A stretch of 64,000 bases of DNA, from assembly GCA_026399755.1 (NCBI GenBank), contig JAPLQI010000012.1, forward strand, positions 1 through 64,000, given 5' to 3'. The notes under the pieces are model-generated. The model did no database searches. It was given only the letters and a program-made list of their open reading frames with translations, and was not told the origin of the DNA. Each line of letters opens with the position of its first letter. Positions within the stretch are counted from its first letter, which is position 1. This document shows, piece after piece, positions 61,551-64,000 of this stretch. The position numbers and the translations under genes were made by a program. This DNA comes from Pseudomonadota bacterium (GTDB lineage: Bacteria; Pseudomonadota; Gammaproteobacteria; Burkholderiales; Chitinibacteraceae).

Positions 61551-62201
61551 ATGATCACTATCGCGCTATCCAAAGGTCGTATCTTCGAAGAAACACTGCC
61601 ACTACTGGCTGCCGCAGGCATTGTTCCTTCTGAGGCCCCAGAATCCAGCCGCAAGCTGATTATTGGCACAAATATGGAAGACGTCAGGCTGATTATTGTT
61701 CGCGCAACGGACGTGCCCACCTATGTGCAGTATGGTGCTGCTGATCTGGGCATTGCCGGTAAAGACGTGCTACTAGAGCATGGCGGCGCTGGCCTTTATT
61801 TGCCGCTCGACTTAGATATCGCTAAATGCCGTTTGATGGTGGCAGTACAAGAGGGCTTTGATTACGAAGGCGCGGTTAAACAAGGCGCCCGTTTACGCAT
61901 CGCCACCAAATACACCGAATGCGCCCGCGAGCACTTTGCCAATAAGGGCGTACACGTCGATTTAATCAAGCTCTACGGCTCTATGGAGCTCGCCCCGCTA
62001 GTTGGCCTTGCCGATGCCATCGTCGACCTCGTCTCCACCGGCAGCACGCTTAAAGCCAATCATCTAGTCGCCGTAGAAGACATCCGCGAAATCAGCTCCC
62101 GCCTCGTAGTAAACCAAGCTGCGCTTAAGCTGAAACACAGCAAGCTCCAACCAATTATTGATGCGTTTGCTGCGACGGTTGCGGCAAGGCAAGCCGCCTA
62201 A
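61551..62201 (+). CDS. hisG: ATP phosphoribosyltransferase HisG, short form
   Basis: HisG makes phosphoribosyl-ATP, the first step of histidine synthesis. This 216-residue protein is the short form, which needs HisZ as its regulatory partner. It has the start [39 protein letters not shown], and the PRPP-binding region [18 protein letters not shown]. The C-terminal regulatory domain of long HisG is absent, as expected. No other his gene follows: the downstream space is filled with repeats, so the operon is broken or dispersed here. Confidence 0.95.
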
Positions 62202-62212
62202 GCGTCTGGCTT

Positions 62213-62233
62213 AGGGCGGGTGAAACCCGCCGC
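62213..62233. repeat. Half of a GTAGGGCGGGT palindromic element
   Basis: TAGGGCGGGTGAAACCCGCC follows hisG directly, with no matching right arm before the long repeat. Confidence 0.6.
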
Positions 62234-62280
62234 TTTACCCCGTAGGGGTCTCTACTGGATCTCACTTCATACGGGTAAAC

Positions 62281-62593
62281 CAAAGTCAAAAAGATCTTTT
62301 TAGTGCCTTCGGCACATTGATTTTGGTGCGGGCGTCCCGCTGGACCTTCCTTTCTTGTGTGGCCAAGAAACGAAGCCAAAGAAGGCCACCCCACGAAACA
62401 CGAAGGCCCCTTCGCTGCGGACAATCAAGTCGGCGGCGGGCGGGATTGGCTCGCTGCCTCGCTCCCTTGCCGAAACCCCGCCCCGCTTGTTCCTCGCTAC
62501 GGCGTGTTTCAAGGGGACTTTAAAGCCCTATGCAGAGAGCGTGGTTATTGTAATTTTTCGCTGTTTTCTAATGAAAAAACAAATTGGCTAGCA
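62281..62593 (-). repeat. GC-rich long interspersed repeat, copy 4
   Basis: About 313 bp, reverse orientation to copy 1 and well preserved, from AAAAAGATCTTTTTAGTGCC through TTTCAAGGGGACTTTAAAGC and CCTATGCAGAGAGCGTGG to AAATTGGCTAGC. ORF fragments of 70-98 codons here are in multiple frames and match those in copies 1 and 2, which fits repeat sequence and not genes. Confidence 0.85.
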
Positions 62594-62596
62594 CAT

Positions 62597-62651
62597 GGGG
62601 TGCTACCCGCGAGCAAAGCTGAAAAAAATGCGGGTTTACCTGCCCTGCGAT
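62597..62651. repeat. GTAGGGCGGGT palindromic element, decayed copy with conserved loop
   Basis: GGGTGCTACCCGCGAGCAAA, GCTGAAAAAAATGCGGGT and TTACCTGCCCTGCG follow in order. The loop CGAGCAAAGCTGAAAAA matches the intact copies at 5858 and 7747 read on the opposite strand. The stretch from 62652 to 62860 is AT-rich and shows no gene. Confidence 0.65.
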
Positions 62652-62860
62652 GATTCAATGCCTGTAATGCGCTCTCGGTGCGCAACGACTTCTTCGTTGT
62701 ACAACCTATAAGCTGTGCACCCTATAAACCAATTAAATATAAATATACCAAATCCACTAATTTCACTTTGTCATCATCAAAGTAATTAATTAATCCCACA
62801 TTCAATAATATGCCTATCGCATTCACTTATTACCAATGTTAATTAATTAATAAATTAGGG

Positions 62861-62888
62861 TTGACATTAATTATTTGATAAGTAAAAT
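62861..62888 (+). promoter_or_regulatory. Sigma-70-like promoter of the magnesium locus
   Basis: TTGACA (62861-62866) and TAAAAT (62883-62888) are separated by 16 bp in an AT-rich region, near consensus for sigma-70. Transcription would start around 62895, giving a leader of about 250 bases before the first gene. No binding site for a known regulator such as PhoP was recognised. Confidence 0.65.
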
Positions 62889-62894
62889 GCGCTG

Positions 62895-63145
62895 CATATT
62901 AACTATCTAAGAGGCTGTCCTGTGGACAACGACGGATGTAATCGATCTGTGTTGGTAACCGCGGTATAGCAGGATAACGTAGATTCAATCTGCCATATCC
63001 TGCTACGCAGGGTGTGGTGTCTTTGTGCTCCCCACTCATCTAACCATTACATAACAAGCAGCAACTTGCTGCGTATTGTTATGCCTATGGCTGGGTTTCA
63101 TCCTTATTGATATCAATCGTCCTCCCTTTTTTTTTGGAGGCTAGA
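62895..63145 (+). promoter_or_regulatory. Long structured 5' leader, possible metal-responsive element
   Basis: Two clear hairpins lie in this leader. TAGCAGGATA (62967-62976) pairs with TATCCTGCTA (62996-63005). ATAACAAGCAGC (63051-63062) pairs with GCTGC then TTGTTAT (63068-63072 and 63076-63082). A third, CCTCC/GGAGG, covers the ribosome-binding site. A nine-codon ORF with two prolines (63081-63110) has no good ribosome-binding site. I could not match the leader to the M-box, yybP-ykoY or other known metal riboswitches. The regulatory role is inferred from length, structure and the Mg-transport genes downstream. Confidence 0.5.
63121..63140 (+). promoter_or_regulatory. Hairpin hiding the ribosome-binding site of the MgtC-CTD-like gene
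   Basis: CCTCC (63121-63125) can pair with GGAGG (63136-63140) across a C and nine T residues. GGAGG is the Shine-Dalgarno sequence of the gene starting at 63146, five bases upstream of its ATG. The stem alone would be weak, so opening or closing could depend on folding of the upstream leader or on a ligand. Confidence 0.55.
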
Positions 63146-63487
63146 ATGCATTTTCTAAAACGACTTATCATCGCCATACGGGGCGCGCATGCCCGTGAAA
63201 TTAATCACTCACAGTATTTTTTAAATATCAGCAGCTCTGAATCAACGATTAGTGATCTGCGTAAGATGCTGATTCACAAACTAAATCTTCTTGGTTTTCA
63301 GGCCCAGCAGCTAAAGATCTTTCGCCAGCCCGAAGGCATGTTTTGCTTGTCGGTGTTGCTGAATTTATCGGCAGACTTGCGCCAAAGTTTTATCCAGATG
63401 GCCATCGGCTTAAGCCAGCATCAAGATGTGCGCCATATTCAGTGGGGGCTGAGAAGCAATAAACCTCGCCTGCGTAAAGCAAGCTAA
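63146..63487 (+). CDS. Small protein resembling the MgtC C-terminal (ACT-like) domain
   Basis: The 113-residue soluble protein starts at ATG 63146 behind GGAGG. It has an N-terminal basic helix, then a beta-alpha-beta pattern (ISSSESTISDLRKMLIHKLN, FRQPEGMFCLSVLLNLSADL) ending LSQHQDVRHIQWGL. The last part resembles the end of MgtC proteins (a helix, then LEPGVxxISWxV), and the overall size fits the MgtC cytoplasmic ACT-like domain without its membrane part. This is by-eye similarity. Placement 339 bp before an MgtA/B-type ATPase gene supports a role in Mg2+ stress. A separate domain of this kind is unusual. Confidence 0.55.
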   Translation: MHFLKRLIIAIRGAHAREINHSQYFLNISSSESTISDLRKMLIHKLNLLGFQAQQLKIFRQPEGMFCLSVLLNLSADLRQSFIQMAIGLSQHQDVRHIQWGLRSNKPRLRKAS

Positions 63488-63545
63488 ATATGCCGCATAT
63501 ATATATTTAATCATTAATGGCGAATGCTTAATTAATTAAGCTGTC

Positions 63546-63638
63546 ATGCCCATTATTAATCCATTTAAATCTGGAGAGGAATCTGCTCGCCCAGAATATT
63601 TAAATATTTTTCAACCTAACCATATATTTAGTTTTTAA
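63546..63638 (+). CDS. Possible short upstream ORF, 30 codons, in the Mg-ATPase leader
   Basis: ATG 63546 to TAA 63638 encodes 30 residues starting MPIINPFKSGEESARPEYLN, with four Pro codons. The ribosome-binding site is weak. Proline-containing leader peptides control mgtA and mgtCBR in Salmonella, so it is listed as a candidate, not an established gene. Confidence 0.3.
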   Translation: MPIINPFKSGEESARPEYLNIFQPNHIFSF

Positions 63639-63665
63639 ATAGCGAAACTAAATAAGGACTCCAAA

Positions 63666-63779
63666 ATGCCAGACGAACCGATATTGCTCGCTGAGTTGCC
63701 ATTGGGTAATTCAGCGGGCCAATTAAATCTATTACTTTCTCAGCGCCCCGCCAGCGCGAAAGGGGATTGCTTTGCCTAA
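63666..63779 (+). CDS. Short ORF, 37 codons, directly upstream of the Mg-ATPase gene
   Basis: ATG 63666 to TAA 63779 encodes 37 residues starting MPDEPILLAELPLGNSAGQL, behind a good AAGGA ribosome-binding site at about 8 bp. Pro codons lie at positions 2, 5 and 12. It ends 46 bp before the ATPase start. It could be a leader peptide that senses translation speed under low Mg2+, as MgtL does, or a small protein of its own. No homology is visible. Confidence 0.5.
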   Translation: MPDEPILLAELPLGNSAGQLNLLLSQRPASAKGDCFA

Positions 63780-63825
63780 ATAAATGCAATGCACCCTCCT
63801 GAGCACTGGCGAACAGGAATTACCT

Positions 63826-64000
63826 ATGACCCATATCGATCACGCCGCCAGCCAGCAGCCAAAAATAAATGCTCTCAGCGACGCTGCCGCAGCTGAACTA
63901 CTCAAAACTAACGGCCTCAACGAAGTCGCGCACGACAAACCGCCTCACGCCCTCGTCCAGCTCTATCTCGCCTTTAAAAATCCCTTTGTTATGGTGCTTT
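63826..64000 (+). CDS. mgtA: Magnesium-transporting P-type ATPase (MgtA/MgtB), 5' end only
   Basis: From ATG 63826, behind AGGAA, 58 residues are visible before the window ends. They include AAAAELLKTNGLNEVAHDKP and PHALVQLYLAFKNPF, which match the cytoplasmic N-terminal segment of MgtA/MgtB and related P-type ATPases (the GLNEvxxxkpp..lvqlllaFkNPF pattern) just before the first membrane helix. Catalytic motifs (DKTGT, TGES) would lie to the right of the window and cannot be seen. MgtA and MgtB cannot be told apart here. It imports Mg2+ under scarcity. Confidence 0.75.
   Translation, partial: MTHIDHAASQQPKINALSDAAAAELLKTNGLNEVAHDKPPHALVQLYLAFKNPFVMVL

Follow-up and report, generated by a model that had tools for sequence, protein, structure and literature searches.

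How is the supply of magnesium controlled at the end of a 64,000-nucleotide stretch of Iodobacter DNA? The stretch (positions 1 to 64,000 of contig JAPLQI010000012.1, GenBank assembly GCA_026399755.1, here called the window) ends in a gene for a Mg2+ pump preceded by a long leader, and its end is part of a 76-kb contig from a genome of the genus Iodobacter. In NCBI taxonomy Iodobacter stands under Chitinibacteraceae, Neisseriales; the order-level sample used for comparison carries 51 family labels and corresponds to what we take to be the GTDB order Burkholderiales. On the forward (+) strand, which carries all of the features described below, the order is a promoter (62861-62888), a leader of ~250 nt, a gene for a small protein, p (63146-63487), a 37-codon open reading frame (ORF, 63666-63779), and an MgtA-type Mg2+ P-type ATPase from 63827. 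This magnesium-pump locus is real, and in Iodobacter it is one operon. Sequence comparison suggests that it is an Mg2+-supply operon whose expression is probably set by a ribosome-coupled RNA switch in the leader.

The pump (887 aa; 63827-64000 lies in the window and the gene runs past its end) scored 1252 bits against TIGR01524, for which the curated cut-off is 610.75, and belongs to that family; an earlier sequence-only reading of the window had called it an MgtA/B-type pump, correctly. Among 43 genomes of the taxonomic family, p was found in 8, every one in the window's genus. The genus is represented by 9 genomes, 8 of which contain p together with this pump; G028, the remaining one, lacks p and any pump above the TIGR01524 cut-off.

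Comparison of the 8 loci, which fall into two clades (6 and 2), shows that p, the 37-codon ORF and the pump follow one another in this sequence in all of them. The most conserved part of the locus is the leader core and not protein p. Between clades, identity is 0.95 in the core (62895-63027) and 0.94 in its leader-ORF part, and 0.37 in the remaining leader. The corresponding values are 0.71 for the p gene, 0.85 for codons 1-18 of the 37-codon ORF, 0.48 for a 30-codon ORF downstream of p, 0.36 for the stretch 3' of p, and 0.44 upstream of the promoter. When the core is taken as 62895-63032, mean column identity in the 8 loci is 96%. Its start approximately coincides with the RNA start near 62895 predicted from the promoter, a sigma-70-type site (TTGACA-16-TAAAAT) that matches the consensus at 11 of 12 positions and aligns in all 8 loci. 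The proposal of a near-consensus promoter therefore held. Promoter-like sites are not in excess in 62200-64000 (2 observed, 3.1 in shuffles), so the weight of the call lies in match quality and conservation. The leader of ~250 bases is also structured, as had been proposed: 62895-63145 folds better than 200 of 200 shuffles (z -3.77).

Leader control had been put forward in general terms. The pairing and model searches below support it, but the sequence-only reading overlooked a leader ORF with alternating hairpins. This ORF (62922-62969) starts with GTG, has 15 codons encoding MDNDGCNRSVLVTAV, ends in TAG, and is preceded by a Shine-Dalgarno-like AGAGG (62910-62914). An ORF begins at the same start in 8 of 8 loci; its length is 15 codons in seven and 18 in L011, after a one-base insertion near the ORF end. 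The stop codon lies in segment 2 (62967-62976), the 5' arm of hairpin 2:3, which is recognized in the window type and in 35 relatives. Segment 3 (62996-63005) can pair, according to pairing test and folding, with segment 2 or with segment 4 (63007-63019). In the window type, 2:3 joins TAGCAGGATA with TATCCTGCTA (duplex -22.5 kcal/mol) and 3:4 joins TGCCATATCCTGC with GCAGGGTGTGGTG (duplex -21.7 kcal/mol), while the control pairing 2:4 reaches only -7.3 kcal/mol. Hairpin 3:4 (62991-63019, 13 pairs) is followed by TCTTTGTGCT and is terminator-like.

The two pairings were examined in 35 leaders by exchanging the partners between leaders. True partners for 2:3 gave -20.7 kcal/mol and swapped partners -15.5 (mean loss 5.2), and for 3:4 the values were -23.5 and -20.1 kcal/mol (mean loss 3.4); in both cases 0 of 10,000 permutations reached the true value. 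Hairpin 1 behaved like 2:3 and 3:4 (-9.1 versus -7.1 kcal/mol), and the control pairing 2:4 gave no signal in the 35 leaders (p 0.41). A subset of 28 leaders had the same outcome for 2:3, 3:4 and 2:4. By this test, segment 3 coevolves with both segments 2 and 4, and segment 2 does not coevolve with segment 4.

Folding was then constrained by a ribosome mask in 8 of 43 leaders. With the ribosome at the stop codon, 3:4 formed in 8 of 8; with the ribosome at the start, 2:3 formed in 7 of 8, by reading of the folds. The arrangement that defines an attenuator by mechanism, an ORF placed so that the ribosome decides between two exclusive hairpins, is thus present in silico only. Terminator-like sites, of which hairpin 3:4 is one, number 9, compared with 2.1 in shuffles. 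We infer that Mg2+ is the signal and that finishing the leader ORF is the OFF state, the latter because 3:4 is terminator-like at the window locus and because of the precedent of mgtL and corL, leader ORFs of enteric bacteria. A ribosome finishing the leader ORF would cover segment 2 and let hairpin 3:4 form, which would stop transcription (as a weak terminator or through Rho) or keep the main start site closed. At low Mg2+, leader translation would fail early, 2:3 would form, and the operon would be read.

The leader is not specific to this locus: it is a member of an order-wide family, and its design also stands before a second mgtA paralogue. This paralogue, 51-53% identical to the pump of the window operon, occurs at 11 places in the taxonomic family, all with a related leader. 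These leaders carry a GTG ORF of 12-13 codons (e.g. MDSSSSRSYIDR) that ends just before the arm of a strong hairpin. A near-full-length MgtC gene is found in the fetched stretch at 7 of the 11 loci, and a partial match at L024; the fetched stretches of L025, L026 and L029 contain no MgtC gene. All 19 pumps above the TIGR01524 cut-off in the 43 genomes of the taxonomic family have the leader.

Three covariance models were built: R1 from the 8 Iodobacter leaders only, R2 from the 11 second-paralogue leaders, and R3 from 35 leaders, none of the window operon's type. In the large samples (R1 and R2 in the order, R2 in the class), ~8-9 first-look candidates per genome were scored under stricter filters, so counts are lower bounds and absence is weak evidence. 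Among the candidates scored in 399 order genomes at E<=0.01, R1 matched the window's own genome only (1/399), and it matched none of the 11 second-paralogue leaders; R2 and R3 were therefore needed. R3 found all 8 window-type leaders (E 8e-6 to 1.3e-4 in 62 kb). In the 64-kb window it matched 62904-63035 with E 2.6e-5, the sole place below E 0.4.

At E<=1e-3, R2 gave at least 33 matches in at least 30 of 399 order genomes. Of these places 31 were inspected, second copies in G062 and G198 being left out; 5 of the 31 are loci used to build R2. Downstream there is an MgtA pump at 22 (19 within ~1.5 kb on the same strand and 3 behind an OprB porin; at L065 another ORF stands between leader and pump), mgtC at one (the window's own genome), OprB without a pump found at 3 (one followed by Nramp), an ABC permease and ATPase at 2, and other genes at 3 (L074, L075, L078). 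When the 5 model loci are set aside, 17 of 26 places lead to a pump. Among the candidates scored in 369 class-sample genomes, R2 gave the window's own genome and one partial match (model positions 68-119, E 1.1e-4).

Scans of the window with Rfam at the gathering score revealed no Mg_sensor, M-box or other relevant family. The same library at E<=10 on 62500-64000 gave three eukaryotic chance matches only, and at E<=1 on the pump loci of 11 relatives six weak matches below cut-offs, none relevant. By sequence comparison the window leader is part of an apparently undescribed leader family with members across the order. Since its relatives stand ahead of magnesium transporters in many related bacteria, the family seems to be one of magnesium-supply switches not yet described.

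Of 43 leaders, 41 have a Shine-Dalgarno-like site followed by GTG (36), TTG (3) or ATG (2) as start codon; the remaining two (L075, L077) have GTGAAT at the same place without such a site. The ORF has 12-21 codons, and its stop stays in or just before segment 2. Two further elements were noted by eye. The string CTTATTGATA (63103-63112) is complementary to TATCTAAG at 62904-62911 and may form a leader-closing helix; its 3' side has identical letters in 6 of 8 loci (with a G-U pair in L011) and is shortened in L015 and L016. A possible CCTCC/GGAGG hairpin (63121-63140), both strings of which occur in 8 of 8 loci, lies over the Shine-Dalgarno site of p. Several of the leaders L055-L062 also share a pyrimidine-rich stretch, close to CTACTTCCCATTTGAT, that is located ~40-60 bases beyond segment 4.

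Several observations weigh against the proposed switch. The alignment behind the swap test had been adjusted to hairpins 1 and 3:4 but not to 2:3, and the test took no account of relatedness; L055 was the exception among the start-masked folds; and most 3:4 hairpins across the family, judged by eye, have no U-tract. Pairing of the pyrimidine-rich stretch was unsupported in 25 leaders, both with segment 4 (p 0.69) and with the main Shine-Dalgarno site (p 0.20). Selection on the leader peptide is weak overall: the ratio of nonsynonymous to synonymous rates (dN/dS) was 0.70 in 11 leaders (0.82 and 0.83 in the other frames), 0.45 in 9 (0.81 and 1.22) and 0.93 in 3 (0.96 and 1.15). For 7 window-type leaders, where changes are few, it was 0.71, and 0.31 in frame +2. 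The commoner leader peptide (near MDSSSSRS) also lacks the Pro/acidic pattern of MgtL. As to the reach of the family, R2 recognized only 6 of 8 window-type leaders, weakly (E 7e-4 to 0.034 in 49 kb), and in the whole own genome at E<=0.1 the window leader was absent from the candidates scored. With R3 in the whole own genome the window leader came second at E 0.002, after the leader before mgtC (6e-14) and ahead of a third place at E 0.11. A search that started from pumps found 78 pump places in 71 of 200 genomes. Of the 30 places examined, only 14 have an R3 leader within 1.5 kb upstream (11 at E<=1e-6, 3 at 0.01-0.02), and at 3 further loci (L103, L107, L111) the leader stands behind a porin; 8 of the 11 strong leaders were already in the model, and L100, L105 and L113 were new to it. 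Since this search finds the leader at part of the 30 loci, the leader is common, not universal.

Part of this evidence would fit a metal-binding riboswitch, in which Mg2+ or another ligand would be bound directly by segments 1-4, with the short ORF either incidental or no more than a folding aid. The strong folding of the leader, the weak dN/dS, and a nucleotide conservation beyond what a peptide needs (0.94 in the ORF and 0.95 in the whole core, between clades) all agree with such a reading. We nevertheless regard it as unlikely, in that all 43 leaders have GTG, TTG or ATG at the start position (no other codon was allowed by the search pattern), the stop is fixed at or in segment 2 while ORF length ranges over 12-21 codons, and no Rfam riboswitch matches. 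Less likely still is that the leader ORF reports general translation stress or charged tRNA, with Mg2+ pumps as one output. Frequent Ser codons, as in peptides such as MDSSSSRSCIG, would suit it, and Salmonella mgtM and mgtP respond to ATP and proline (PMC3641672). However, the number of Ser codons varies, the genes downstream are mainly Mg2+ transporters, and we noticed no amino-acid operon at any of the 31 places inspected; the window peptide itself, MDNDGCNRS, has no Pro and one Ser.

Apart from the proposed ribosome-coupled switch, the operon raises the question of what p does. Protein p (113 aa) was read from sequence as similar to the C-terminal domain (CTD) of MgtC, a claim that stood for the fold and found no support as a sequence match. 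Its AlphaFold model has a mean pLDDT of 79.5, with block means of 81-95 over residues 21-100, and a predicted beta-alpha-beta-beta-alpha-beta fold of a stand-alone, ferredoxin/ACT-like protein. The two solved MgtC CTDs, 7QA5 and 2LQJ, rank first and second in a Foldseek search of the PDB (E 1.2e-3 and 1.4e-3; none <1e-3), and VIA-align places 2LQJ first (Z 10.8 over 90 residues) and 7QA5 second (Z 9.9 over 92). Pfam gave no match on p, which also lacks the MgtC membrane domain PF02308; two PF02308 proteins of the genome are encoded elsewhere. No p was found in plasmids. A search of 300 order genomes returned its own genome and four weak matches (E 0.006-0.07), the best of them a 90-aa ORF antisense to an 855-aa ORF, taken as chance.

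On the modelled structure p likely descends from MgtC, and, as an MgtC-CTD-like domain without the membrane part, it may be a soluble partner or modulator of Mg2+ uptake. Three results qualify this reading. The next VIA-align rows are unrelated ferredoxin-like folds at Z 9.8 and 9.7, so that 2LQJ stands one unit above them and 7QA5 is tied with them; the MgtC/SapB C-terminal domain profile PF21770 did not match p at E<=10, a search in which HMMER filters drop weak matches; and hhalign of p with MgtC C-terminal parts was not significant, both alignments being shallow. The same fold is shared by ACT domains and ribosomal protein S6 (VIA-align Z 8.6-9.8), and p could then regulate its own operon as an ACT-like sensor or RNA-binding protein rather than act as a pump partner. 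We find this doubtful, given that the two MgtC CTDs rank first in both programs, although by a narrow margin, and that the leader is present in genomes where no p was found.

Two short ORFs had been placed between p and the pump, of which the second is conserved and the first is not. The first (63546-63638, 30 codons) is probably not a gene: the nearest relative alone matches it over the full length (L012 and L006, which are the same genome). The second, the 37-codon ORF (MPDEPILLAELP...), is a candidate second leader peptide directly before the pump. Its start, its Shine-Dalgarno site (AAGGA at 63654-63658; AGGA or AGGGA upstream in 8 of 8) and its MPD[EQ]PI N-terminus are present at all 8 loci. 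L015 and L016 carry a frameshift toward the end of the ORF with nucleotides still alike, as expected if only the first codons and the RNA matter. A hairpin inside the ORF (63684-63720) has -25.7 kcal/mol here and -15.1 to -27.5 in the 8 loci. The stretch 63488-63825 folds better than 100 of 100 shuffles (z -4.07), and a TCCTG/CAGGA pairing (63797-63818), seen by eye in the alignment, might mask the Shine-Dalgarno site of the pump. Starting with MPD[EQ]P, the ORF may act as a second, MgtL-like check directly before the pump.

Members of the leader family also stand before other genes. In the window's own genome, a second leader copy on contig C62 (L005:3754-4796) directly precedes mgtC with no pump between, and in G029, G031 and G035, of the same genus, the order is leader, mgtA, mgtC. 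By this comparison, the pump gene seems to have been lost at the second copy in the own genome, with leader and mgtC left. At L079 (G359) and L080 (G274) the leader is followed by genes for an ABC permease, identified by Pfam at both loci, and an ATPase, with domain AAA_assoc_C from a Pfam run on L080 only; this transporter is a candidate for an unrecognised Mg2+ importer. OprB-type 'carbohydrate' porins follow the leader at L081, L082, L083, L084, L085 and L086, three then followed by an MgtA pump and one by Nramp, and they are candidate Mg2+ entry porins. Separately, a ~300-base dispersed repeat lies at 62255-62560 of the window and also at C22:16614-16882 and C22:71241-71510; it has at least 42 matches in its own genome at 85-95% identity apart from the query, with 40 of 181 candidates scored.

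A wider proposal, which we offer tentatively, is that this order-wide, undescribed family of leaders responds to Mg2+ with a Ser-rich nascent peptide (around MDSSSSRS) in place of the Pro/acidic MgtL, so that ribosome and peptide would interact in another way to sense low Mg2+. In Iodobacter a second, MgtL-like ORF and a free MgtC CTD would have been added, and the OprB porins and an ABC transporter (AAA_assoc_C type) that follow the leader would be novel systems for Mg2+ uptake. The published cases of leader-ORF control over Mg2+ pumps that were found concern enteric bacteria. If our reading is true, another order has a second solution with no recognizable sequence relationship to the enteric one; control of Mg2+ supply through the ribosome would then have arisen repeatedly or be of greater age than assumed, the present leaders would be an independent system for asking what the ribosome senses at low Mg2+, and the leader would mark unrecognised Mg2+ transporters. 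Among the open-licence PMC matches listed, no title or abstract start describes a leader ORF or riboswitch that precedes mgtA in Chromobacterium, Burkholderia, Burkholderiales or Betaproteobacteria.

The closest known systems share some of these features. The Salmonella/E. coli mgtA leader with MgtL (Rfam Mg_sensor) likewise has a leader ORF before an MgtA pump and two exclusive folds, with ribosome position deciding between them (PMC11552253, PMC6460261). MgtL has Pro codons at 3, 5, 7 and 9 (PMC6460261), which the window leader peptide lacks, and its Pro/acidic residues are described as making translation inefficient at low Mg2+ (PMC11552253). The Pro and acidic residues of the 37-codon ORF recall MgtL (PMC11552253), and MPD[EQ]P is present in 8 of 8, but without its alternating Pro pattern. 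The window family has no match to Mg_sensor or another relevant family in the Rfam scans, and was found in the window's order, with the one partial match outside it among the candidates scored in 369 class genomes.

The Salmonella mgtCBR leader (mgtM, mgtP) resembles the window locus in that alternative hairpins and two short ORFs lead up to mgtC and an Mg2+ ATPase, with a ribosome site hidden by one hairpin (PMC3641672), as may be the case here. Both of its ORFs stand before mgtC; at the window locus one precedes p and the other separates p from the pump. The polarity of mgtP is opposite to the proposed OFF on completion (PMC3641672). In contrast to mgtCBR, the MgtC membrane part is absent at the window locus. 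The CTD of MgtC (PDB 2LQJ, 7QA5) provides the best two fold matches of p, yet p has no membrane domain and its identity to MgtC is only 9-13%. The M-box (ykoK) Mg2+ riboswitch is likewise found ahead of Mg2+ transporters, mgtA and Nramp types among them (PMC4072509), but does not match in the Rfam scans, and the window family has a leader ORF and other pairing. In the E. coli/Salmonella corA leader, CorL is a leader ORF with fewer Pro/acidic residues, there are two folds, and expression is repressed when the ORF is translated (PMC11552253), which is like the situation proposed here; corA is a transporter of another type, and the sequence relation was compared through Rfam scans only. In silico, the window leader would thus share the design of the enteric Mg2+ attenuators while standing outside their Rfam family.

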